Shown here: piece by piece, positions 3,368 through 43,887 of the stretch
Layout: each line of letters begins with the position of its first letter
Position numbering within the stretch: the stretch's first letter is position 1
DNA from: Myxococcales bacterium
GTDB lineage: Bacteria; Myxococcota_A; Polyangia; Fen-1088
DNA length: 43,972 nt
Assembly: GCA_003153015.1 (NCBI GenBank)
Contig: PMBS01000041.1
Coordinates: forward strand, 1 to 43,972
Reading direction: 5' to 3'
The notes under the pieces: generated by a model
Seen by the model: the letters and a program-made list of their open reading frames with translations, nothing else
What the model was told of the DNA's origin: nothing
Database searches by the model: none
Program-made: the position numbers and the translations under genes

Positions 3368-4657
3368 TCAGTTGCTGACGAACGAAACGTCATCAATGGT
3401 CAAATTGATGCCCGTGCACCCTAGCTGACCACCGTCGCCCACCGGCGCGGGCGACTGGAACTGCCATTGCAGTCCCACGATCTCGTTCGCGATGGCCGCC
3501 TGGGTGGTCAGCTGTCCGCCACTCAGATTCGCAAAGGGGACGGAGACCACGCCCGAGGTACTCGTCAGCTTCGTGCCCGGGAATACGTAGCAGCCGGATG
3601 TGCATCCGCCCACCTGCCCCGGACCTGCGGGTTTCTCGTCGAAGGTCTGGACCTGGAAATAGAGATCACAACCTGCGACGCTTCCGCCCAATGTAAACTG
3701 CACTCCGGTGTAGATTGTCGTGTTTACACATGCATCGAACGACATGCCACCGTTAGCAAAGTCGCCTGCTGCCACGGTGCCAGCCAGCACCAAGTTCTCG
3801 CTGGTCGTATTGACGGTCGCGTTCATCGTGCTGTTGGATGGTGCGTAGCTAAAAATGCTGCCTGACAGGGCGCCAATCGTTCCCCACTTGCCACCTCCAA
3901 CAAGTGGGTGCCATCCGGCTAGTCCGGTTGCCGAGAAATCCGTAATCAGCGGCGTGGTGGGTGAAACGCCTGGCGTGCACGTGGGCGCAGTCCCCGTGGT
4001 CCCGCCAGCAGTAGCCCCACCTGTGCCTGTCGTACCGCCAGTGGTCGTCGTGGTCCCGCCTGAATTGGTCGATCCGCCGGAACCAGTCGACCCACCTGTG
4101 TCGGAAGATCCGCCAGAGCCAGTCGACCCACCTGTGTCGGAAGATCCGCCAGAGCCAGTCGACCCACCTGTGTCGGAAGATCCGCCAGAGCCCGTGGACC
4201 CGCCTGTGTCGGAGGATCCGCCGGAACCAGTCGACCCACCTGTGTCGGAAGATCCGCCAGAGCCAGTCGACCCACCTGATGCGGTAGTTCCTCCCGAGCT
4301 TTGCGACCCGCCTGATGCGGTAGTTCCTCCTGAGCTTTGCGACCCACCTGACGCGGTAGTTCCTCCTGAGCTTTGCGACCCGCCTGACACGGTAGTTCCT
4401 CCTGAGCTTTGCGACCCGCCTGATGCGGTAGTTCCTCCTGAGCTCTGCGACCCACCTGATGCGGTAGTTCCTCCTGAACTTTGCGACCCACCTGACGCGG
4501 TAGTTTCTCCTGAGCTGGACGAACCACCCGAGCCTTTGCTTCCGCCAGAGGCCTGGTTGCCGCCACTCGTCTGGGTGCAATTCGCGGTTGCTGCAGCGAG
4601 GGCCAAACATCCGATCCACGTGGTGATCGTCGGACAAGTCGTTGCTGTCTTTCGCAT
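3368..4657 (-). CDS. Lipoprotein-like secreted protein: two families of 12-aa repeats plus C-terminal CBM-like domain
   Basis: Signal/lipobox region (LALAAATANC), repeats SQSSGGTTASGG and STGSGGSSDTGG, C-terminus ending LTIDDVSFVSN as in CBM-like jelly rolls. Confidence 0.75.
   Translation of the reverse strand: MRKTATTCPTITTWIGCLALAAATANCTQTSGGNQASGGSKGSGGSSSSGETTASGGSQSSGGTTASGGSQSSGGTTASGGSQSSGGTTVSGGSQSSGGTTASGGSQSSGGTTASGGSQSSGGTTASGGSTGSGGSSDTGGSTGSGGSSDTGGSTGSGGSSDTGGSTGSGGSSDTGGSTGSGGSSDTGGSTGSGGSTNSGGTTTTTGGTTGTGGATAGGTTGTAPTCTPGVSPTTPLITDFSATGLAGWHPLVGGGKWGTIGALSGSIFSYAPSNSTMNATVNTTSENLVLAGTVAAGDFANGGMSFDACVNTTIYTGVQFTLGGSVAGCDLYFQVQTFDEKPAGPGQVGGCTSGCYVFPGTKLTSTSGVVSVPFANLSGGQLTTQAAIANEIVGLQWQFQSPAPVGDGGQLGCTGINLTIDDVSFVSN
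4060..4530. repeat. Coding minisatellite: two adjacent 36-bp repeat families
   Basis: + strand shows reiterated 'ccagtcgacccacctgtgtcggaagatccgccagag' and 'gcggtagttcctcctgagctttgcgacccacctgat' units, matching 12-aa protein repeats on the - strand. Confidence 0.85.
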
Positions 4658-24498: not shown

Positions 24499-25794
24499 CT
24501 ACGGCGTACAGCCTCCCTCCTCGCAGTGTGAACCCATCAACACGGATACTGGCCAGACGTTCGCGCAAGACTGATCGAGCGCCACTTCCTGACCGCCCGT
24601 GCAAGTGACTTTGTAGAAGTCGCCCGCGTAGTCATACGCCACGCTCCCTACGGTTGCGCCGGAAGCGTCCATCACGGTTATGTTTCCTACGCCGTTGTAG
24701 AAGTCGTTCCCGTTGAACTCCGTCGAAAAACACGTCGAGCCGGCCTTCTTCACGGTCAGGGTTCTGTCATCAGTTTGCGGGTTGTGGACCATGATCTCGG
24801 TTACCCCGTTGCTGTAACAGCTGTTCGAGCTGCCGGTGGCCAAATCCGCCTGCGAGGTACAGCTTCCACTTTCGACGCAGTCGGCGCCGAGGTTCTTCAG
24901 ACAGTCCGGCAGCTCGCACACGGGAGGACCGCAGACGCAAGCTCCAGAGGATGTCGTGCCGGTGTCGCCGCCGCTGCCTCCCGAGCCTGTCCCGCCCGCC
25001 CCGCTACCAGTGCCTCCCGCGCCCGCCCCACTGCCGCTGCTGCCTCCCGAGGCTGTCCCGCCCGCCCCACCACCGCTGCCTCCCCTGCCGCCCGTGCTGC
25101 CTCCCCCACCGCCGCTGCCTCCCCGGCCGCCCGCGCTGCCTCCCCCACCGCCGCTGCCTCCCCGGCCGCCCGTGCTGCCTCCCGCGGCGCCCGCGCTGCC
25201 TCCCCCACCGCCGCTGCCTCCCCGGCCGCCCGTGCTGCCTCCCGCGGCGCCCGTGCTGGTCCCGCCTCCGCCACCACCCGTCGTGCCCGTGCCAGTTCCG
25301 CCAACGCAGACGCAACCTCCGGTGGATGTCCTGCCGGTATCGCCGCCGCTGCTGCCCCCGCTGGCGTTCGTCCCGGTCCCGCCGCTGCCGCCGCTGGCAT
25401 TCGTGCCGGTCCCGCCGCTGCCGCCGCTGGCGTTCGTGCCGGTCCCGCCGCCATTGCCGCCTGAGGCTGTCGTGCCGGTATTGCCGCCACTGCTGCCCCC
25501 GCTGGCGGTCGTGCTGGTCCCGCCACTATTGCCGCCCGAAGCAGAAGATCCGCCGGAACCCGGGGCCCCGCCGCTGGCCGTCGTGCTGGCCCCGCCGCTG
25601 CCGCCCTTGGCAGCCGTGCTGGTCCCGCCGCTGCTGCCACCTGAGGCAGCCGTGCTGGTCCCGCCACTGCCGCCCTTGGCAGCCGTGCTGGTCCCGCCGC
25701 TGCTACCACCCGTGGGTGTTGTGCTGGGGCTCTTAGCGCAGCCCTGCGCAACCGCGAAAAGGCCAACGATAACCAAGGCACCTACTTTTCTCAT
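24499..25794 (-). CDS. Gly/Ser-repeat lipoprotein with C-terminal globular domain
   Basis: IVGLFAVAQGCAKS lipobox; extensive GGSTGGRGGSGGGG repeats; C-terminal about 130 aa with even Cys content. Confidence 0.75.
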   Translation of the reverse strand: MRKVGALVIVGLFAVAQGCAKSPSTTPTGGSSGGTSTAAKGGSGGTSTAASGGSSGGTSTAAKGGSGGASTTASGGAPGSGGSSASGGNSGGTSTTASGGSSGGNTGTTASGGNGGGTGTNASGGSGGTGTNASGGSGGTGTNASGGSSGGDTGRTSTGGCVCVGGTGTGTTGGGGGGTSTGAAGGSTGGRGGSGGGGGSAGAAGGSTGGRGGSGGGGGSAGGRGGSGGGGGSTGGRGGSGGGAGGTASGGSSGSGAGAGGTGSGAGGTGSGGSGGDTGTTSSGACVCGPPVCELPDCLKNLGADCVESGSCTSQADLATGSSNSCYSNGVTEIMVHNPQTDDRTLTVKKAGSTCFSTEFNGNDFYNGVGNITVMDASGATVGSVAYDYAGDFYKVTCTGGQEVALDQSCANVWPVSVLMGSHCEEGGCTP

Positions 25795-28107: not shown

Positions 28108-28336
28108 GAGGAGAGGACACGGAGACGGAGCTGAGGGGGCGGCCGAAAGGAAATTCAACTGATACTTTTTAGCTTGGTATCTATCTATGGGTAATGATGA
28201 GGGATTCTTCATACGCTGGCGACCACAAGTCTGCCCCAGGCGAAAAAGAAACGTGCCGGCTGTACTTCCCCCTCTAACGTTGAGATTCGCTATCATCTTT
28301 GGTAGCTGCGTCACGCACGCACATACGGGGACGAAC

Positions 28337-29770
28337 ATGAAAGCAAATCACTCGAAACTCTGGCTGACTCTTGCACTCCTGCTCGCGATGGGATGCGGGG
28401 CACGAACACCGCTCGACGACTGGGAGACACCGGCTAGCCCGGGCGCCGGCGGAACCACTTCCCAGAGTGGAGGCACAAGCGGAACCTCCGCAAGCCTTGG
28501 GGGCAGTCTCGCAACCGGCGGCCAGGGCGACGGCGGGCAAGTCGCGACCGGCGGACGCGGCGGGCAAGTCCCCTTCGGCGTCGGCGGTACCGTGGTCGGC
28601 GGCCGCGGCGGGCAAGTCGCGACTGGCGGGACCGGCGGACAAGTCCCCTTCGGCGTCGGCGGTACCGTGGTCGGCGGCCGCGGCGGGCAAGTCGCCACCG
28701 GAGGGACCGGTGGACAAGTTGCCACCGGCGGACGCGGCGGGAATATCCCAGACGGCGGCATCATAGTTGGCGGACGCGGCGGCGCGGGCGGGACCCCGCC
28801 ACTCGGTGGCACCGTGATCGGCGGACGCACCCGCGGGTCCGGCGGGCAAGTCGCTGCTAGCGGCGGCGCGGGCGGGACCCCTCCACTCGGCGGCACCGTG
28901 ATCGGCGGACGCACCCGCGGGTCCGGCGGGACAACCCCATCGGGCGGCACCGTGGCCGGCGGACGCACTGGAGTGACCACCGGGCCCATCCCCTTGGGCG
29001 GCACCATAGTCGGCGGACGCGGCGGCGCGGGCGGGACCACGCCACTCGGCGGCACCGTGGTCGGTGGACGCGGCGGCACCGCTGGCTCGAGCACCGCGGG
29101 TGGAACTGGGGCTGCGGGTAGCGGCGGGACGGCCGGCACCACGTGTGTAGGTTTGGCTCCCAATGAAGAACTGATCGACGACATGAATGATGGTGATCGC
29201 TTCATCCCGCAGGTCAACGGACGTGCCGGGGCCTGGAAAGACAGCGACGACGGCACTCCGGGCGCAACCATGTTCCCCGATCCAGCGGGACTATTCACCA
29301 TGACAGACACAGGCGACGCCTGTCGCAAGTACGCGGCCTACGCGTACGGTGGGCCCTTTGTAGACACGGGCGCTACCTTTGGGTTCGGGATCGGCGGCCC
29401 GTACAACGCATCCGCGTACACAGGCATCAGTTTCTGGGCAAAGATCGACGGCGGCACATCGTCGGGCTTGCGGGTCGCGTTCCCCGACAAGGACACCCAG
29501 CCTGATGGCGGGCTCTGCCAGCCGGGCGTCGCGGGTCCGACACAGTGCTGGGACCACTACGGCAAACGCATTACCAACCTCACCACGTTTTGGTCGAAGT
29601 ACTTCGTCGACTTCTCTTCACTCAGCCAGGACGCGTGGGGGCGCCAGGGAACCGCCTTCGACCCGTCGACCATCTACGAGGTGCAGTTCCAGATTCCGGT
29701 CGACGCCAAGTTCGGGATTTGGATCGACGACGTCGCGTTCTTCACAGGTTACTTCGGTCCCACACCCTAG
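28337..29770 (+). CDS. Gly-repeat lipoprotein with C-terminal CBM-like domain
   Basis: MKANHSKLWLTLALLLAMGCG lipobox; reiterated GGTVVGGRGGQVATGG; C-terminus ELIDDMNDGDRF...FWAKIDGG...FGIWIDDVAFF. Confidence 0.8.
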   Translation: MKANHSKLWLTLALLLAMGCGARTPLDDWETPASPGAGGTTSQSGGTSGTSASLGGSLATGGQGDGGQVATGGRGGQVPFGVGGTVVGGRGGQVATGGTGGQVPFGVGGTVVGGRGGQVATGGTGGQVATGGRGGNIPDGGIIVGGRGGAGGTPPLGGTVIGGRTRGSGGQVAASGGAGGTPPLGGTVIGGRTRGSGGTTPSGGTVAGGRTGVTTGPIPLGGTIVGGRGGAGGTTPLGGTVVGGRGGTAGSSTAGGTGAAGSGGTAGTTCVGLAPNEELIDDMNDGDRFIPQVNGRAGAWKDSDDGTPGATMFPDPAGLFTMTDTGDACRKYAAYAYGGPFVDTGATFGFGIGGPYNASAYTGISFWAKIDGGTSSGLRVAFPDKDTQPDGGLCQPGVAGPTQCWDHYGKRITNLTTFWSKYFVDFSSLSQDAWGRQGTAFDPSTIYEVQFQIPVDAKFGIWIDDVAFFTGYFGPTP

Positions 29771-33640: not shown

Positions 33641-33684
33641 GCCTTTCCCGAGGAGGAAGCGGGCGCCGAGCTAGCAGCTTGCGA

Positions 33685-33716
33685 CCCCCGCTTCCGCCGA
33701 CGGAACGGGGGTTTTT
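33685..33716 (+). terminator. Putative rho-independent terminator, riboswitch expression platform abutting the start codon
   Basis: cccccgcttccgccgacggaacgggggttttt: CCCCCG/CGGGGG and TTCCG/CGGAA stems plus T5, directly before cATG at 33718. Confidence 0.75.
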
Positions 33717-33717
33717 C

Positions 33718-35817
33718 ATGGGGTCGAAAAGGGTGCCGGCCGGCGCGGAGATCGCCGACCAAGCCTGCAAGCACAGACTTTCGTTTCCAGGCGCCGCTTC
33801 CGCGGCGGCGGTTCTGTGCATGACCGCGGGCACCACGCGGGCGGCCGAACCGCTCTATGAGACCGTGGTGGTGGCCGAGGCAGGGGCCGGAGACCGGGCG
33901 CGCCAGGATGACGCAGCGTCGTCTTCCATAGTCACGGCCGACCGCACTCCCCGTAGCGCTGAGGACTTGCCCCAACTCCTTTCCGAGCTGCCCGGCGTCT
34001 CGGTCACGCGTTTGGGCGGTCTGGGATCCATGGCCACCCTGTCGCTGCGCGGATCATCGGCCAACCAGGTCGAGGTCTACTTCGACGGCGTGCCGCTCTC
34101 GGCAGCCTCCGGTGGTGGCGTAGACATCGGGCTCATTCCGGTCGTGGATCTCGATTCGGTCGAGGTCTATCGGGGAATGAGCCCTATCGTGTTCGGCACC
34201 TCGGCCATGGGCGGAATTGTGTCGCTTTCGAGCGCCGCCGCAACCGATTCAGGTGCGCGCGCCTACGCGGGCGGCGGCTCTTTCGGGACCGAGTTTGCCG
34301 GGGTGCAAGGACGGTGGGCCGCGAAAAACCTACGCGCGCTCGGCAGCGTGAACGCTTTCAGCTCGGCCGGCGACTTCACCTATCACAACGACAATGCCAC
34401 ACTCCTCGATCCCGACCCCAGCGACGATTCCACACGTCGCCGCCAGAACAATGCCCTCTGGCAGATCGACGGCCTGGTTCACGTAGTGGGGCTTTTGCCT
34501 GGGCGGCGACAGATCTGGGGCACCGCCAGTTTTCTTCACCGCGATCAGGGCGTGCCACCCGTGGGCTCGCTGCTGGCGAGGGGAGCAGCGCTCGGCACCG
34601 ACAGACTGATTGCCACCGCGGCCTACCAGTCGCGCGACGATCTCGGGCTGGGCAGTTCGTTGCGTGCCCAACTCTACACGGTAACCACCTGGCAACGCTT
34701 CCACGATCCCTGCGGTGATCTGTCAGGCCAGCCCACCCAAACGCGGGACCTTTCCACCAGCTCTGGCGCCACGCTCGCTGGCTCGAAGCCGCTTGCTGGG
34801 TGGCTGAGGCTTTCCGCGATTGCCGAAGGCCGCTATGAACGCTTCGATCCTTCGAACGTTCTGTCCGGCGCGGTTTCCATTCCACCTGGCTCGCGTACTT
34901 TTGCTGCCGGCGGCATGGAGGCGCGTTTTCTCGTCCAAGCGCTACGTCTGGCCGTAATCCCGTCGCTGCGCCTGGAGGTGGCCAAGGACGAGATCACGAG
35001 CCCGAAACGCTATCGCCTGATAAACGCTGACACCCGACCCGCCACCTACTGGCTGCCCAACGCGCGCTTGGCCCTCGTGCAATGGGCGAGCGAGCAAGTC
35101 ACTCTGCGCGCAAACCTGGGGCGCTACGGTCGTCTGCCTTCGACGTTCGAGCGCTATGGAGACACCGGCCAAGTCTTGGGCAATCCCAGCCTGGTGCCCG
35201 AGACCGGCACCAACGCAGACCTTGGCGCAAACTGGACTCGCGCAGGCGCGCGGCTGCGGCTTTCGCTCGACGGCGCTCTGTTTGCCGCCTGGGCGCACGA
35301 CCTCATCCAATTCCTTCAGGTCGGGACCCAAATGCGGCCGGGCAACGTTGGTCGTGCGCGCATCCTGGGCGCGGAATTTTCGGCCACCGCCGACTGGCGA
35401 CGCCGCTTTCGGTTCTTCGGGCAAACCACCTTCACGGATGCGCGCGACCTAGAGGACGTGGCCTGTTGCCACAATAAGCAGCTTCCCCACCGGCCTCGCC
35501 TGCGCGCCTACGCGCGGCCCGAGCTGCGCAATCTTGCCCTGGCGGGTCGCTGGCGCTGGGGGCTGTACGCCGACCTGGACGTGACCAGCGGTAACTACCT
35601 CGACTCGCCCAACCTGGTCGAAGTCAACCCGCGTGTGCTCTTCGGTGCGGGTGGGCAGATCAGCGCACCCCACTGGGGGCTGCGCCTAGTGGCCAGCGCG
35701 CAGAACCTGGCCAACACCCCTGTCGTCGATCTGGTCGGCTATCCCCTGCCCGGCCGCTCGGTCTTTCTCACCCTGCAATGGTCCACGCCCGAAACCAACA
35801 AGGAGATTCTGGAATGA
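33718..35817 (+). CDS. btuB: TonB-dependent outer-membrane receptor, BtuB-like
   Basis: Plug-like ELPGVSVTRLGGLGSMATLSLRGSSANQVEVYFDGVPL...DSVEVYRGMSPIVFG; C-terminal beta strands; riboswitch upstream and btuCDF downstream. Confidence 0.88.
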   Translation: MGSKRVPAGAEIADQACKHRLSFPGAASAAAVLCMTAGTTRAAEPLYETVVVAEAGAGDRARQDDAASSSIVTADRTPRSAEDLPQLLSELPGVSVTRLGGLGSMATLSLRGSSANQVEVYFDGVPLSAASGGGVDIGLIPVVDLDSVEVYRGMSPIVFGTSAMGGIVSLSSAAATDSGARAYAGGGSFGTEFAGVQGRWAAKNLRALGSVNAFSSAGDFTYHNDNATLLDPDPSDDSTRRRQNNALWQIDGLVHVVGLLPGRRQIWGTASFLHRDQGVPPVGSLLARGAALGTDRLIATAAYQSRDDLGLGSSLRAQLYTVTTWQRFHDPCGDLSGQPTQTRDLSTSSGATLAGSKPLAGWLRLSAIAEGRYERFDPSNVLSGAVSIPPGSRTFAAGGMEARFLVQALRLAVIPSLRLEVAKDEITSPKRYRLINADTRPATYWLPNARLALVQWASEQVTLRANLGRYGRLPSTFERYGDTGQVLGNPSLVPETGTNADLGANWTRAGARLRLSLDGALFAAWAHDLIQFLQVGTQMRPGNVGRARILGAEFSATADWRRRFRFFGQTTFTDARDLEDVACCHNKQLPHRPRLRAYARPELRNLALAGRWRWGLYADLDVTSGNYLDSPNLVEVNPRVLFGAGGQISAPHWGLRLVASAQNLANTPVVDLVGYPLPGRSVFLTLQWSTPETNKEILE

Positions 35818-37046
35818 CCCATCGACGATTCGATTCTGTTTTTTCCCTTGTGCTTCCTGCAATGCTCGGGCTGGCTTGCGGCAGTGGTGCTGCGCCGGCG
35901 TCAGGCAGCGCCGGCCCAACCGGCTTGGCCGTCATCCACGGCAGCATCGACTACACTTCGTCGCTGCTGTCGCTCGTCGATCCAGCGACTGCCACGGTGG
36001 CGCGCGACAACTGCCTCAACTCGGGCAGCGCACCTCCGCAACTCTCGCAAGCGCTTTCTGGTGACGTGGTCCTACCCAGCGCGCCCTTGCCCGGCCATCC
36101 GCTAGTGCTTATCGATCGCGGCAACAACGCCCTTCTGTGGGTGAACCCCGCGGACTGCAGCGTGACCCGCGAGATCAGCGTCAGCACAGGATTTGCTGCC
36201 GACCCGCATGACGTGGTGGCGGTTGCGCAGAACAAGTTCTACGTGACCCGCTATGCGACCAACCTCAAGCCGAGCGCGGACCTGTCTGACTTCGACGAGG
36301 GCGCGGATCTCCTGATCTTGGACCTCGATCTTGGCAAGCCGGTGGCCCGCATTGACCTTTCCCCCTACGCCACGGGAGCGGGCATCAATCCCAACCCCGA
36401 CCGTGGCCTTGTTCTCGACGGCAAGATCTACATCACGCTCAACAACTTCAGCGCGGATTTCAGCCAGGCCGGGCCCGGTCGCGTGCTGGTGGTGGATCCA
36501 GCGACCGACGCGGTCACCACGATCATCGATCTGCCAGGTCTTAAGGACTGCAGTGCCATCGTGCCGGTGCCGGGGCAAGAAGGAGCCCTGGCTGTGGCGT
36601 GCGGCGGGGCCTTTGCCGACGGTGCTGACCGAGTCAAGGGCTCGGGCGTGGTCTTGATCGACACATCGGTGTCGCCCGCCACGGTACAGCCCCTGATGGC
36701 CGCGGCCTTTGGCCGCCCACTCTCATTCGCCGATCTCGCCGTGGTGAGCCCCACCCTCGCCTTTGCTGTCTTGCCTGGTGACTTTTCGGGCTCGCCTCCC
36801 GATCAACTGTGGCAGTTCGACTTCACCCGGGGCGTGCCGCAGAAGCTGCTCGACGGCGGTACTGACTACGTACTAGGAGGCCTGGTCTTTGATCCAGAAA
36901 CGCAGCGGGTTTTTCTGGGCGATGCCGATGCACAGACGCCCAAGCTGCATGTGCTTGACGTGAGTGTCTGGCCGCCGGCTGAGCTGCCCTCGTTCTCAAG
37001 CGACCCAGCCGCAGGCATGCTACCGCGGAATCTTGGATTGTACTAG
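35814..37046 (+). CDS. Beta-propeller (YncE-like) surface/periplasmic lipoprotein, candidate B12-binding accessory
   Basis: Lipobox MLGLACGSG; repeating blade-like segments (LSLVDPATATVARDN, LLWVNPADCSVTREI, LLILDLDLGKPVARID, VLVVDPATDAVTTI, VFLGDADAQTPKLHVLDV); ATGA overlap with btuB stop. Confidence 0.8.
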   Translation: MTHRRFDSVFSLVLPAMLGLACGSGAAPASGSAGPTGLAVIHGSIDYTSSLLSLVDPATATVARDNCLNSGSAPPQLSQALSGDVVLPSAPLPGHPLVLIDRGNNALLWVNPADCSVTREISVSTGFAADPHDVVAVAQNKFYVTRYATNLKPSADLSDFDEGADLLILDLDLGKPVARIDLSPYATGAGINPNPDRGLVLDGKIYITLNNFSADFSQAGPGRVLVVDPATDAVTTIIDLPGLKDCSAIVPVPGQEGALAVACGGAFADGADRVKGSGVVLIDTSVSPATVQPLMAAAFGRPLSFADLAVVSPTLAFAVLPGDFSGSPPDQLWQFDFTRGVPQKLLDGGTDYVLGGLVFDPETQRVFLGDADAQTPKLHVLDVSVWPPAELPSFSSDPAAGMLPRNLGLY

Positions 37047-37131
37047 TGCCGCTTGCCCGAAGTTACGAAAGGGTTTCAAACGATGCGCGCAACAATGAGG
37101 GACACTGAAACACGAGGCGAGGCGGCACTAG
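37043..37131. repeat. 89-bp CTAG-bounded palindromic element with 10-bp perfect inverted ends
   Basis: CTAGTGCCGC (37043-37052) and GCGGCACTAG (37122-37131); a third copy of the end (GCAGCACTAG) at 37286-37295. Confidence 0.6.
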
Positions 37132-37155
37132 TCTCGATTTACGGAGGGGTGTGCC

Positions 37156-37182
37156 CCTCCCCCCGTCGGGCGAAGCCCGACG
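37156..37182. repeat. GC-rich hairpin cccgtcgggcgaagcccgacggg
   Basis: Palindromic arms flanking GAA loop, located between the beta-propeller gene and btuC. Confidence 0.6.
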
Positions 37183-37294
37183 GGTCCCCCCTTCCCCCGC
37201 TCGGCCTTGCGGCCTCGCGGCTCGCGCTTTGCGCTCGCGTGCTACCCGAAGAGCCCCTGTGCATCCCTTCTACGAGTTCTGGCGGGCAGCACTA

Positions 37295-38281
37295 GTGAAG
37301 ACTGCGCTCACATACGCTGTCCTGCTCGTGCTCCTGGTGGGCTCGGTGGCGCTGGCGTTGCTGGTCGGGCACGGCAGTCTGGCCGACCCAGCGCTGCGTT
37401 CGACGTTGCTCGGCTTGCGGGCGACACGCGTAGGGGCAGCCTTGCTGGCAGGCGCGGCCCTGGCCACTGGCGGGGCCGTGGTGCAGGGCGTGTTCCGCGA
37501 TCCACTGGTCAGCCCATCCATCCTGGGCACCACAGCGGGCGCCAGCTTAGGCGGACAGTTGGCCATGCTGGCTTTGGTTTCGGGCTCGCCCTTGGCCAAC
37601 TTGGCGGTCAGCGCCGAAATGGTGTTGCCGCTCGGCTGCCTGCTGGGCGCCGGCCTGTCGCTTGCCATCGTGCTCACTTTCTGTCGCGAGCGCACCGGCA
37701 CGCTGACTCTCATCCTCACTGGGTTCATCCTGTCGTCGCTGTTTCTCGCCCTGTCCAGCTTCATCACCAGCCTGGCACAAGATTCCTGGGACATGAGCCG
37801 AGCCGTGGTGTCCTTCACTTTGGGCGGCGTGGGCGGGGTCAGCACGCGCCAGCTTTTCGCGGTCCTGCCCTTGGTCGGCATCGGCATCCTCGCCTGCTGG
37901 CTGTGGAGCGACAACCTCGACCTGCTGCTTTCCGGCGAAGACGAGGCCGGCAGCTTGGGCGTCGAGGTAGGGCGAGCCCGACGCTGGGCCGTGACCTGGG
38001 TGGCGGTACTGGCCGCTGCCGCCATCGCGGTGGGCGGCAACGTGGGGTTTGTCGGCCTCATCGTTCCGCACACCCTGCGGCCCTTGGTGGGCGTGCGCCA
38101 CCGGCGCCTGATTCCGGCCTGCGCCCTTCTGGGCGGCGCATTCCTCGTCGCCTGCGACGTCATCGCGCGCGTCTTCCCCAGCCGGTCCGAGCTGCCTCTC
38201 GGGGTAATCACCGGCATCATCGGGGCGCCCGTGTTTCTGATTTTGCTGGCACGCTCGCAACGCGAGGTGAGCCATGGCTGA
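37295..38281 (+). CDS. btuC: FecCD-family cobalamin/metal ABC transporter permease
   Basis: GTG start at 37295 (VKTALTYAVLLVLLVGSVALALLVGHG); LRATRVGAALLAGAALATGGAVVQGVFRDPLVSPSILGTTAGASLG; VGFVGLIVPHTLRPLVGVRHRRLIPACALLGGAFLVACD. Confidence 0.92.
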   Translation: MKTALTYAVLLVLLVGSVALALLVGHGSLADPALRSTLLGLRATRVGAALLAGAALATGGAVVQGVFRDPLVSPSILGTTAGASLGGQLAMLALVSGSPLANLAVSAEMVLPLGCLLGAGLSLAIVLTFCRERTGTLTLILTGFILSSLFLALSSFITSLAQDSWDMSRAVVSFTLGGVGGVSTRQLFAVLPLVGIGILACWLWSDNLDLLLSGEDEAGSLGVEVGRARRWAVTWVAVLAAAAIAVGGNVGFVGLIVPHTLRPLVGVRHRRLIPACALLGGAFLVACDVIARVFPSRSELPLGVITGIIGAPVFLILLARSQREVSHG

Positions 38282-39056
38282 CGAAGCACTCATCGAGGCA
38301 CAGGGGCTGACTGTGCGGCGGGGAAATCACGTACTGCTCGACCAGATCTCCTTTTCTCTTGGGGCAGGACAAGTGGTTGCGCTGCTCGGGCCAAACGGCG
38401 CGGGCAAGAGCACGCTGCTCAAGGCCCTGGCCGGCCTGTTGCCATTCTCGGGTGAGCTGCGGCTCGACGGCCGCGAGGCATCCCAACTTGGCCGCCCCGA
38501 ACGCGCGCGCCTGGTGGCCTATGTGCCCCAGCATTCGGCGCTGGATGCGGCCTTGCCAGTACGCGATGTGGTGGCGCACGGTCGCTTCGCCTATCGGGAT
38601 GTCTGGGGTCGGCCTGACCGGCGCGACGATGCGGCCATAGATCGGGCCATGCAGCTCACCGACACGCGCCGGCTGGCCGGCCGATCCTTCAGTCGCCTGT
38701 CCTACGGCGAGCGACGGCTGGTGCTGCTGGCGCGCGCCCTGGCCACCGAAGCGCGCGTGCTCCTGCTCGATGAGCCCACCGCCGCGCTGGATGTGACCCA
38801 CGCACTTGGCTTGCTCCACCTGCTACGGGACCTGGCGAGCCGCGGGGCTCTGGTCATGGTGGCGCTTCATCAACTCAACGAAGCCGCTCAGGTGAGCGAT
38901 CGGGCGCTGCTGCTCGCCAGCGGCCATCTGGTCGCCGCAGGCTCTGCGGCGGAGGTCATTTCTGTCGAGCCTGTGCGCCGGGTCTACGGCGTCGAAATCG
39001 TGCCCGCAGCCCAGTTTGGCTTTCGCACGCCGGCTGAGAAGGACACCCCTCCATGA
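38274..39056 (+). CDS. btuD: Cobalamin ABC transporter ATP-binding protein
   Basis: LLGPNGAGKSTLLKALAGLL; LSYGERRLVLLARALATEARVLLLDEPTAALD; overlaps btuC. Confidence 0.92.
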   Translation: MADEALIEAQGLTVRRGNHVLLDQISFSLGAGQVVALLGPNGAGKSTLLKALAGLLPFSGELRLDGREASQLGRPERARLVAYVPQHSALDAALPVRDVVAHGRFAYRDVWGRPDRRDDAAIDRAMQLTDTRRLAGRSFSRLSYGERRLVLLARALATEARVLLLDEPTAALDVTHALGLLHLLRDLASRGALVMVALHQLNEAAQVSDRALLLASGHLVAAGSAAEVISVEPVRRVYGVEIVPAAQFGFRTPAEKDTPP

Positions 39057-40000
39057 ACCGCGCCACCCTAGCCAATGCCTGCGCCCTGGCAGCGGCTGTC
39101 GCGTTGACCATTCACTTTGGCCGCAGCCCTGGCCGAGCCATGCCCGGCCACCGAGGCGGCCCACCGACTGCAATAGGTCCGACTGCCAACCCAAGCCTTC
39201 CCGATGCTACCTCCCACCCCGTGCCTTTGCGGCGCTACACCCGCATCGTGTCCACCAATCTGGTCACCGATCGCCTGCTCTTGGATCTGGCCGAGCCTGA
39301 CCGCATCTTGGCCTTCAGTCGCGCTGCCGCCGAGCGGCCGCAGGACGGCTATCGCTATTCCGGCAAGCCGGTTGTCGACGGCTTCGGCCCGGTTGAGGCG
39401 CTGATTGCGTTGCGGCCGGACCTCGTGCTCACCAACAGCTTCGGCACCGCCGGACGCGCGGCCAAGCTGCGTTCAGCTGGCATTGAGGTCTTTGACTTGG
39501 GCGAGTTGCGGGGTGTCAGTAGTTTGCTCAAGGCAGCCAAGACGCTCGCCCAACTGCTGGGGAAGCCCGAGCGCGGCCAGGACTTTGCGCACAGCTTTGC
39601 GCAGCGAATGAACAACGTGGCTGCTGCGCTGGCGGGGCGGCCGCGCAAGACCGCCCTGTTTCTGTCGATAATTGGCAACCAGGTACAAGGCGGCACCACC
39701 GGCACGGCGTTGCACGACGTCCTGACCGCAGGCGGCCTAGTCGATATCGCTGCCGCCCTCTATCGCGACTGGCCTGCCTATTCGGCCGAGCAGCTCCTGG
39801 CTCTGGAACCCGACCTGATTGTGACCAAGCAGGGAATGTCCGCCGCGGTGTGCGCCTTTCCTGGCGCCGACTTCCTGGCCGCCTGCCGCGAGCCCGACCG
39901 AATCATCGAGCTTCCCGCTGAACTGCTCGATGAGCCCGGCCCGGCCATGCTGGAAGCTGCCGAGGCCATCTACCGGCTAGTGTACGGCGAGCAGCAGTAG
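39053..40000 (+). CDS. btuF: Cobalamin-type periplasmic substrate-binding protein
   Basis: RIVSTNLVTDRLLLDLAEPDRILAFSR...VEALIALRPDLVLTNSFG...LAQLLGKPERG; overlaps btuD. Confidence 0.88.
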   Translation: MNRATLANACALAAAVALTIHFGRSPGRAMPGHRGGPPTAIGPTANPSLPDATSHPVPLRRYTRIVSTNLVTDRLLLDLAEPDRILAFSRAAAERPQDGYRYSGKPVVDGFGPVEALIALRPDLVLTNSFGTAGRAAKLRSAGIEVFDLGELRGVSSLLKAAKTLAQLLGKPERGQDFAHSFAQRMNNVAAALAGRPRKTALFLSIIGNQVQGGTTGTALHDVLTAGGLVDIAAALYRDWPAYSAEQLLALEPDLIVTKQGMSAAVCAFPGADFLAACREPDRIIELPAELLDEPGPAMLEAAEAIYRLVYGEQQ

Positions 40001-40049
40001 TCACATCGCACTTGGCCTGCGAATCTGACAGAGTCATCGGCAGCTGTTC

Positions 40050-42077
40050 ATGCCGAACCCCGCTGACAAAACCCCTGCTTCCGCCCGCTGGCAGATTGTC
40101 TCGCCCAGCCGCTTGCGCCCTACCCTGTTCGCGCGGCGAAAGTACTGGGCGCATCGCTTTGGCGTAGCGCCGGTCCTGCCCATGTCGCGCGCCGAGATGG
40201 AGCAGCTCGGCTGGGAATGCTGTGACGTCATTCTGGTGACCGGCGACGCCTACGTTGATCACCCGAGCTTCGGCGCGGCGCTCATCGGCCGCGTGCTGGA
40301 GGAACAGGGCTTTCGCGTCGGCATCATTGCCCAACCCGACTGGCGTTCGGCAACCGGGTTCGCCTGCCTGGGCCGCCCGGCCTTCATGTTTGGCGTGACC
40401 GCCGGGAACATGGATTCGATGGTGAATCTGTTCACCGCGGAGAAGCGGGTGCGCAGCGACGACGCGTATTCGCCAAACGCAAAGCCTGGCCTGCGGCCGG
40501 AACGCGCGGTCACGGTCTACGCCCAACGCTGCCGCGAAGCCTTTCCCGACGTGCCGGTGGTCATCGGCGGCATCGAAGCCAGCCTGCGCCGGGTCGCTCA
40601 TTATGATTACTGGTCGGACAAGGTTCGGCGCTCTGTGCTCTTCGATTCCAAGGCTGACCTACTCGTCTACGGCAACGGCGAGCGCCAGGTGGTCGAGATC
40701 GCCCATCGCCTGGCCATGGGCGAACCGGTTGCGGCGATCACCGACGTGCGTGGTACGGCGTTTGCGCTGTCAGCCAAGACACCACGGCCCGGTGAGATCA
40801 ACTGCACCACCGTCAGCGGCAGGCGCGCATACAACGGCCAGGTGATCCGCCTGCCCAGCTTCGAGGCTGTGGCCGAGGATCCAGTCCTTTACGCCCATGC
40901 CTCACGCATTCTCCATCTCGAATCCAACCCAGGCAACGCGCGCACCTTGCTGCAACGGCACGACAACCGCGACCTGTGGGTCAACCCGCCGGCCCTGCCG
41001 CTCACCACAGCAGAGTTGGACGCCGTCTACGATCTGCCCTTTTCGCGCCGGCCCCACCCAAGCTATGGCGGCTCGCGCATTCCGGCGTACGAGATGATCA
41101 AGTGTTCGATCTCGATCATGCGCGGATGCTTCGGCGGCTGCACCTTCTGCTCGCTCACCGAACACGAAGGTCGCATCATCCAAAGCCGCTCGCCCGAGTC
41201 GGTCCTACGTGAGATTGCGTCGGTACGCGAGAAGACACCGGGGTTCACGGGCGTGATTTCCGATCTGGGCGGGCCCACCGCCAACATGTATCGGCTGGCC
41301 TGCAAGAACCCCTTGATCGAGGCTGCGTGCCGGCGGCTTTCGTGCGTCTTCCCAGGCATTTGCCCCAACCTCGACACCAACCACGGCCCGCTCATTGATC
41401 TCTACCGGCAAGCGCGCCAGGCACAAGGGGTGAAGAAGGTCACCATCGGCTCAGGCGTGCGCCACGACTTGGCCCTGGCCTCGCCCGCCTATGTTGAAGA
41501 GCTGGTCAGGCACCATGTGGGTGGCTATCTCAAAGTCGCTCCTGAGCACAGTGAGTCCGGGCCGCTCGACAAGATGTGCAAGCCCGGCATCGCCGCGTTC
41601 GACGAGTTCCGCGTGCTGTTTGAACGCTTTTCGCGCCAGGCGGGCAAGGAACAGTATCTCATCCCCTATTTCATCGCCGCGCACCCAGGCGCCACGCTGC
41701 GAGACATGCTGGAGCTGGCGCTCTGGTGCAAACGCAATCGCTTCCGGCCCGACCAGGTGCAGGCCTTTCTGCCCACACCCATGGCCCTAGCGACCGCCAT
41801 GTACCACACGGGCAAGAACCCTTTGCGTCGCTTGCGCCGCCGCGGCGGCGAAGAGGTTTGCGTGGCTTGCGGTGAGAAAGAGCGCCGGCTACACAAGGCA
41901 TTTCTGCGCTACCACGATCCGGAAAACTGGGCGCTACTTCGCGCTGCCCTTCTCCACCTGGGCCGGCCAGACCTCATCGGCCACGGCCAAAACTGCCTGG
42001 TTCCGCCTGACCACCAGACGATGCGCGGAATCCGTCCCGCCCTGAACAAGCCACGAAGCACGCACCGCCGCCACTGA
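40050..42077 (+). CDS. ygiQ: YgiQ-family radical SAM protein
   Basis: [60 protein letters not shown] radical SAM cluster; [20 protein letters not shown]. Confidence 0.93.
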
Positions 42078-42249: not shown

Positions 42250-43887
42250 ATGGCTGCAACCACACGACTCCCTCGACTCATAGCAATAGTGGCGGTATGC
42301 GCGCTGATGGCAGGAGCCGGGGCATGTGCCAAGACGGTCACCTCTGAGTCTAGCAATGGCGGATCAACTGGCGCCTCCACGACCAATCCGAAAGGGGGAA
42401 CCACGAGCAGCGGCGGCTCCTCAGGAGCCGGCGGCGGCGGGGGCTCTGCAAGCTCCTCGGCTCCCGCTGGCGGCGGCTCCACCAGCAGCAGCGGCGGCTC
42501 CATCAGCAGTGGCGGCTCCACCAGCAGCGGCGGGTCGACCAGCACCGGCGGCACGCAACAATCGGGCGGCGCGACCGCTACCAGCGGGGGAAACACCGTA
42601 GTCGGCGGCACGACTGCCAGCGGGGGCAGCACACGAACCGGCGGCACAACTGGAACCGGGGGAAACACCGGAGCCGGCGGCACGGGTACAAGCGGGGGCA
42701 ACGCCAGTACCGGCGGCGCGACCGGCACGGGCGGCTCCACGACCAGCACCACCGTTCCCTTGCTGCCGCCGCCCAACCCGTGCTCCAACCAGTTCACGAG
42801 CCAGGGGTGCAGGAAAGGCCAAGCGTCGAGCACGTGCGGCGGCATTTGTGCGAACGACTACGGCGGCACTGCCGCCAACGTGTGCCAGGGGGGAAGCAAC
42901 GGCGTCCCCGTGAACTACGCCTGCCCGCAATTCATGCTTTATAGCGATGCGCTGAATCAAGCGGTGATCGCCGACGGCTTTGGGGACAAGCTCAACTACG
43001 CCGTGGTTGGGCACGACATGGACGGCGGCTCGGGTGGCGTTGACAGCGGCCTCCCGGACGCCTGCTGCCAGTGTTACCAACTGGTGTTCGATTATCCGAA
43101 GGAAAACCAAGTCTGGGTTGACCCTGACCATACGCCTGGAACATCTGCGATCAACATCCCGAAGCCCTTGGTGGTTCAGAGCTTCAACACAGCGACCAAT
43201 GGACCCGATGACTTCGACATCTACATGGGCGCGGGCGGCTTCGGCGCCAACAACGGTTGCTATGTGAGCGGCGGAACTTGCCCAGGCGGCCCCTGCATGT
43301 ACAGCGGGTATCCCACCCAAGACGGCGGCATGGTCAAAGCCGTGGGCAACACGTTCCAAAACCCCTGGCCCGATCCGTGCAAGACCTCGGTTACGAATTG
43401 GGTCACCCAGGCCACTCTTACGTCACCGGCCTGCGCGAATGCCGTGACTACCGCGTGCAATCAGATCACCTCGCCCAATGCCAGCATCCAAACCCAGACG
43501 ATCCGCTCGTGCGTGCAGTCGAACGGCGTGAAGGCCGATGACACCGGGCAGATCCCCGGCGACTACCACGTCAACTGGTACATCTGGGTCAAGCGCGTCG
43601 AGTGCCCGACCAGCCTCACCAACATCACCGGCTGCAAGCTCGCGAGCCAGGCACTGCCCAAACCAGATCCGAACGTCGCCACCGTCCCGCAAGCCAAGGC
43701 CGCCGGCTTCCTTCAAAAATCCGGCAGTGGCAGCAACTTCAGCACGACTCAAATGCAGGACTGCTGTATGGCTACCTGCTCCTGGTCGAACAACGTGAAG
43801 GGCACCACGGTCAACGGCTACAACTCGTTCTATTCATGCGACAAAGACGGCGTGCCGTGGACGACCGCCGTCACCCGGACTCAATGA
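42250..43887 (+). CDS. Lipoprotein with Gly/Ser/Thr linker and circularly permuted GH45-like endoglucanase domain
   Basis: ALMAGAGACAK lipobox; GGSTSSGG linker; DACCQCYQLVFDYP...LVVQSFNT...DDFDIYMGAGGFGANNGC...WYIWVKRVECPTSLTNITGCK matches GH45 core order; STTQMQDCCMATCSW...SCDKDGVP lies at the C-terminus. Confidence 0.82.
   Translation: MAATTRLPRLIAIVAVCALMAGAGACAKTVTSESSNGGSTGASTTNPKGGTTSSGGSSGAGGGGGSASSSAPAGGGSTSSSGGSISSGGSTSSGGSTSTGGTQQSGGATATSGGNTVVGGTTASGGSTRTGGTTGTGGNTGAGGTGTSGGNASTGGATGTGGSTTSTTVPLLPPPNPCSNQFTSQGCRKGQASSTCGGICANDYGGTAANVCQGGSNGVPVNYACPQFMLYSDALNQAVIADGFGDKLNYAVVGHDMDGGSGGVDSGLPDACCQCYQLVFDYPKENQVWVDPDHTPGTSAINIPKPLVVQSFNTATNGPDDFDIYMGAGGFGANNGCYVSGGTCPGGPCMYSGYPTQDGGMVKAVGNTFQNPWPDPCKTSVTNWVTQATLTSPACANAVTTACNQITSPNASIQTQTIRSCVQSNGVKADDTGQIPGDYHVNWYIWVKRVECPTSLTNITGCKLASQALPKPDPNVATVPQAKAAGFLQKSGSGSNFSTTQMQDCCMATCSWSNNVKGTTVNGYNSFYSCDKDGVPWTTAVTRTQ

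Follow-up and report, generated by a model that had tools for sequence, protein, structure and literature searches.

Subfamily A of the GH45 glycoside hydrolases (Pfam PF02015), typified by Humicola insolens Cel45A (2ENG) and the enzymes of Neurospora crassa (6MVI) and Thielavia terrestris (5GLX), provided the comparison set for this study. In the Humicola enzyme, disulfides are formed by the residue pairs 11-135, 12-47, 16-86, 31-56, 87-199, 89-189 and 156-167. The catalytic mechanism is inverting, with Asp10 as the base and Asp121 as the acid (PMC5829257; the roles are also given in PMC6509783); for HiEGV the reported distance between the two aspartates is 11.3 A (PMC5829257). Some beetle GH45s in which Ala74 or Asp114 is altered tend to be inactive or shifted in substrate (PMC6509783). 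Natural permutation is already known in other glycoside hydrolases: the GH16 lichenase of Fibrobacter succinogenes is cited as a natural circular permutant (Tsai 2003, cited in PMC2395249), and a ruminal GH3 beta-glycosidase is cited for its permuted domain topology (PMC6165527). Here we describe a gene on a 43,972-nucleotide contig from a Myxococcales soil bacterium (PMBS01000041.1, analysed over its whole length and hereafter called the window), whose product is very probably a true circular permutation of a GH45 domain of the subfamily A type. An earlier note on this stretch had proposed that the GH45 core here precedes the segment with the catalytic DCC motif, and this order is upheld by the homologues, a rotation scan and shuffle controls.

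Layout of the permuted gene

The gene (42250-43887, forward strand) is a single uninterrupted ATG-to-TGA frame without internal stops, which has full-length homologues and encodes a lipoprotein-like protein of 545 residues. It begins with a predicted signal peptide (42250-42327) ending in a probable lipobox cysteine (AGAC, codon 42325-42327). Lipoboxes are clearer in the homologues L007, L014, L015 and L010 (for example TGC, AGC and MGC), and the product of the window gene is probably secreted and anchored in the outer membrane. The signal peptide is followed by a Gly/Ser/Thr-rich linker made of tandem 18/36-bp repeats (42328-42765). Other reading frames of the window, at 3368-4657 and 24499-25794 on the reverse strand and 28187-29770 on the forward strand, also run across tandem-repeat regions and have no Pfam match. 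Next comes a new, Cys-rich N-terminal lead of the form CGGxC...C (42766-42921), one cysteine of which may correspond to canonical Cys47. Several relatives (L014, L015, L013, L023 and L025) have a motif (N)GxxxxGETGxDCGGxCxxCP after the linker and ahead of the permuted domain.

The GH45 core (42922-43638) corresponds to canonical residues ~55 to 199, as delineated by HHalign (columns 79-228) and PDB profile hits, and displays the motifs CCQCYQLVF (from 43063), FDIYMGAGGFGANNGC and VECPTSLTNITGCK. Within it, a Gly-His-Asp triplet (43009-43017), invariant in 44/44 permuted sequences, stands in place of canonical Ala74 and the adjoining groove loop, and the equivalent of the catalytic acid, HiCel45A Asp121, is encoded at 43216-43218. 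From the old C-terminus (TGCK) a linker of 35 codons (43639-43743) leads to the moved segment (43744-43884; TTxMQDCCxxxC...FYSCDxxG), which HHalign and the PDB profile equate with canonical residues ~5-35 and which contains the equivalent of the catalytic base, Asp10, at 43759-43761. The part of the protein after the core thus reads STTQMQDCCMATCSW...FYSCDKDGVPW. The codons that had been assigned to the two aspartates (in FD and QDCC) proved exact and in frame, and the reported absence of a DCC strand upstream of the core is correct for both the window protein and its homologues; the linker, put earlier at roughly 45 residues, was slightly overestimated, with ~40 residues separating the core from the catalytic Asp. 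Just upstream of the gene (33679-42077) are a TonB-dependent receptor and then BtuC-, BtuD- and BtuF-like uptake genes, the last gene before the GH45 gene encoding a YgiQ-type radical SAM protein (40050-42077). The neighbouring genes in the window were uninformative as to the substrate.

Rotation, distribution and origin

The window protein alone retrieved no match in Pfam, NCBIfam or PDB (phmmer), because it is too diverged when taken singly, and rotating it by hand brought no Pfam match. A profile of 23 relatives, when searched against PDB, found 10 sequences, all of them GH45s (best 6.8e-9), and the best alignment fell into three blocks whose order was rotated (query 294-321 with chain 21-47, 87-154 with 105-160 and 247-270 with 203-226). 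For an HHalign rotation scan, a profile of 47 permuted sequences was cut in 10-column steps and compared with a canonical GH45 profile of nine sequences. The native order scored 104.3 over 147 columns, whereas cuts between TGCK and DCC formed the peak of the scan, with scores of 138.9-139.8 over 215-221 columns; a cut slightly inside the moved segment gave 136.0 and cuts at other places 80-120. Doubling the permuted profile produced one collinear alignment spanning the whole domain. The moved segment by itself aligned to canonical columns 5-38 with a score of 51.8, as against 11.8 +/- 2.6 (maximum 21.0) for 200 column shuffles, and shuffling its columns within the rotated profile brought the score back to 104.2 +/- 0.7.

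In native order PF02015 is matched by 15 of the 45 relatives at E<=1e-3, and these match nothing else in Pfam. Rotation raised the PF02015 score of one short-form relative from 39.5 to 50.7 bits and that of another from 35.1 to 50.4 (cut-off 27), and the match, which had covered model positions 44/47-170, now covered 4-170. The expectation that a de-permuted sequence would score better was therefore borne out for these two relatives and for the HHalign profile (104 to 140), but not for the window protein, which was unmatched in either order.

The core comes first and the DCC segment last in every full-length homologue (45 distinct sequences from myxobacteria and Fibrobacterota), and the canonical N-terminal strand is found in none of the close homologues, all of which are permuted. 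This conserved order, together with the shuffle controls, rules out a chance arrangement. Matches to the window protein are present in 16 of 59 related genomes; the same-order homologues among them, full-length or nearly so and 39-87% identical, occur in the genus of the window and beyond, while a few weaker matches cover the Gly/Ser/Thr linker only. A scan of 85,462 genomes (one per species) yielded 52 loci, carried by myxobacteria and Fibrobacterota (Fibrobacter sp. and Chitinispirillaceae MAGs). As most of the source genomes are fragmented MAGs, an assembly or binning artefact might be considered. However, the order recurs across dozens of independent contigs and in the genome of an isolate, Polyangium fumosum DSM 14668, and the gene is a single open frame without stops, which makes an artefact exceedingly improbable. 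The permuted gene was found in 2 of 331 Myxococcota genomes sampled evenly, pointing to a patchy distribution, common in the family of the window and rare elsewhere. The window genome itself has two permuted genes (on C176 and C51) and one canonical gene (on C222), and both orders coexist in many other genomes too. At another locus, in Polyangium sp. y55x31 (L086:5950-6132), only about the final 45 codons are still in frame, downstream of unrelated or decayed sequence; this is a relic of a permuted GH45 gene.

The position of the cut could be anchored with the short-form relatives (L013, L014, L015, L027 and L075), in which the start of the domain resembles PPNLKNNAQSSCGGGQGFMC. The lead in L013, L015 and L027 is just NxxxxSxCxGGxxYMC with canonical spacing, and L014 terminates in FYTCDKAGNPS; the corresponding stretch of the canonical paralogue from the window genome (L001) is HTCGKDGTATVNNDTQSACGGGGGYMC. 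The Cys47-Cys55 spacing of the short forms is 8, the same as in canonical enzymes. These ends and this spacing place the break between canonical Cys31 and Cys47, in the loop that separates them, with the new linker joining the old termini. We propose that canonical residues ~5-35, a stretch comprising the first barrel strand, the catalytic base Asp10 in DCC and cysteines 11, 12, 16 and 31, came to follow the former C-terminus (TGC, residue 199) by way of a new 35-residue linker, with new termini opened in the Cys31-Cys47 loop.

A tree was built from 44 permuted GH45s, 29 canonical ones from bacteria and 3 from eukaryotes (fungal and springtail). In it, the permuted sequences form one clade with support of 100/100 and a long stem of 1.93, and the bacterial canonical GH45s form a separate clade (90/91). 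The simplest reading of the single permuted clade is one origin. Permuted GH45s of Fibrobacterota are placed at two points within the myxobacterial tree (L055/L061/L062/L063/L069 and L057/L065), which suggests at least two transfers between the phyla. Side-by-side pairs of canonical GH45 genes were detected at G375:C58:2681-4402 (L145, L147) and G377:C344:9025-11428 (L135, L146), in genomes that hold permuted GH45s as well. Given such tandem genes, duplication followed by fusion and trimming would be a plausible route to the permutation; among the reading frames inspected, none was an intermediate with DCC at both ends of the core. The same tandem pairs in related genomes show that fusions can arise, and the protein could accordingly be a truncated GH45 core fused to an unrelated sequence or to the decayed start of a second GH45, the C-terminal piece being an accessory module. 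Nevertheless, a second core was never found downstream in the homologues, none of them has its own upstream DCC strand, and the base Asp and the cysteines of the moved piece are 100% conserved, all of which makes such a fusion very improbable in comparison with a permutation.

Active site, predicted fold and function

Residues were compared between 44 permuted and 29 bacterial canonical sequences, with numbering per the 1oa7 chain. Both catalytic aspartates, Asp10 and Asp120 (121 in Humicola numbering), are invariant in 44/44 permuted and 29/29 canonical sequences. Also common to both sets are Cys11, Cys12, Cys16, Cys31, Cys55, Cys85, Cys88 and Cys134, the GGxG glycines and the cysteines of the second half. 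Thirteen of the 14 canonical cysteines are aligned in all 44 permuted sequences, and an upstream candidate for the fourteenth is present in 45/45. The equivalents of Cys87 and Cys199 are both missing in bacterial canonical GH45s (L001, L032-L037 and L111-L147) and both present in the permuted ones; this joint presence or absence is consistent with an 87-199 pair, and the bacterial canonical enzymes have apparently lost one disulfide as a unit. If the Humicola pairing given above is right, four bonds would link the core with the moved segment.

AlphaFold (AF2) models were generated for the window protein with 23 sequences and for the short-form relative L015 with 45. The former (pLDDT 74) gave no significant Foldseek match, although GH45s ranked at the top. 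The latter (pLDDT 84.9, pTM 0.88) had eight matches at E<=1e-3, all of them GH45 chains of subfamily A, with E values between 2.5e-6 and 4.1e-5 and target-normalised TM scores of 0.52-0.58, from an alignment that is sequential and hence silent on the place of the moved strand in the barrel. The L015 model thus has the GH45 double-psi beta-barrel fold, and the moved segment is predicted as a confident strand (256-263, pLDDT ~90), which is compatible with the structural expectation of the earlier note. We would expect the six-stranded double-psi barrel of canonical enzymes to form here too: its C-terminal strand would be fastened to the core through the disulfides of canonical GH45s, and the two aspartates would face each other for inverting hydrolysis. 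The linker is long enough for the C-terminal DCC segment to reach either its own barrel or that of a neighbouring chain, the latter giving a domain-swapped dimer or oligomer, and the sequence does not distinguish between the two. However, the single-chain model has good confidence and shows this segment as a strand, and nothing specific speaks for oligomers; we regard such a swap as unlikely and retain closure within one chain.

Around this conserved pair several accessory positions, for which a role has been demonstrated or suggested in other GH45s, are altered. Tyr8 is replaced by Met in 44/44 permuted sequences and Trp9 by Gln or Glu; Ala74, which is Ala in 29/29 canonical sequences, is Gly in 44/44; and Asp114 is absent, its place being taken by a gap or by G, S or N. 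The replacement of YW by MQ before DCC, noticed earlier, is hence real but incomplete as a description, since Ala74 and Asp114 (Humicola numbering) are altered too. Furthermore, the permuted set has acquired new invariant residues, namely His-Asp after the Ala74Gly change (GHD), a further Asp before CCQC, and YHxNW. Given that Ala74 and Asp114 are also changed, the case for cellulase activity is weaker than it would look from the two aspartates alone. The shared Asp pair makes hydrolysis likely despite the altered accessory sites, and we lean towards the two aspartates cleaving a polysaccharide of the beta-1,4-glucan type.

In evolutionary terms, the permuted proteins may be a GH45 subfamily in their own right, of single origin and carried by myxobacteria and Fibrobacterota. 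Its active-site groove would be remodelled, GHD...D and YHxNW having been fixed and Tyr8, Ala74 and Asp114 lost, and its classical Asp pair would act on something other than plain cellulose; we advance this combined reading tentatively, at a little short of even confidence. The permutation is common to this reading and to one that differs from it in function alone, whereby the permuted fold is not a cellulase and either acts on another polysaccharide or binds and loosens without cutting, like expansins or loosenins. The alteration of Tyr8, Trp9, Ala74 and Asp114, the new invariant GHD, Asp and YHxNW, the long stem branch (1.93) and the GH45 relatives on record with a xyloglucan shift or without activity (PMC6509783) all favor a function of this kind. 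Against it, an Asp pair invariant in 44/44 would be unexpected if hydrolysis had been lost, and the base Asp, present in all of these, is missing in expansins, loosenins and subfamily C (PMC10909974, PMC5829257). On this balance a non-cellulase function is a real possibility, albeit a doubtful one.

Relationship to known systems

No description of a permuted GH45 was found in the papers searched, though absence there is no proof, and CAZy and UniProt lay outside the search; we regard the clade as a probably new, permuted form of GH45. Its barrel is cut between catalytic base and acid, the cut is fixed clade-wide, and the canonical paralogues in the same genomes offer a ready-made comparison for studying the constraints that barrel topology, the order of folding and disulfide pairing place on the evolution of enzymes. 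A blind spot is exposed as well, as Pfam and NCBIfam profiles miss permuted GH45s or truncate them (to the core only in the two relatives inspected), and the GH45s of myxobacteria and Fibrobacterota are therefore probably undercounted.

With subfamily A the permuted proteins share the Foldseek fold, the acid and base Asp, the GGxG loop, the Cys framework and the CPxxL...TGC end of the core. They differ from it in their rotated segments, in the replacement of Tyr8, Trp9, Ala74 and Asp114, and in having an extra Cys pair, a new N-terminal lead and a new linker. The canonical-order GH45s of Myxococcota and Fibrobacterota (L001, L111-L147) occur in the same genomes, have the same Gly/Ser/Thr lipoprotein-like architecture and share with the permuted proteins an additional cysteine ahead of the core's second half; in contrast to them, they have an N-terminal DCC and no equivalents of Cys87 and Cys199, which the permuted and most eukaryotic enzymes keep. 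GH45 subfamily C, expansins and loosenins are without the base Asp10, unlike the permuted set (44/44). Among rearranged glycoside hydrolases, the GH16 lichenase is likewise a bacterial, naturally permuted catalytic domain, but belongs to another family with a jellyroll fold, whereas the GH3 enzyme, to go by the title of the cited work, has reordered domains rather than a cut inside one GH45-type barrel.
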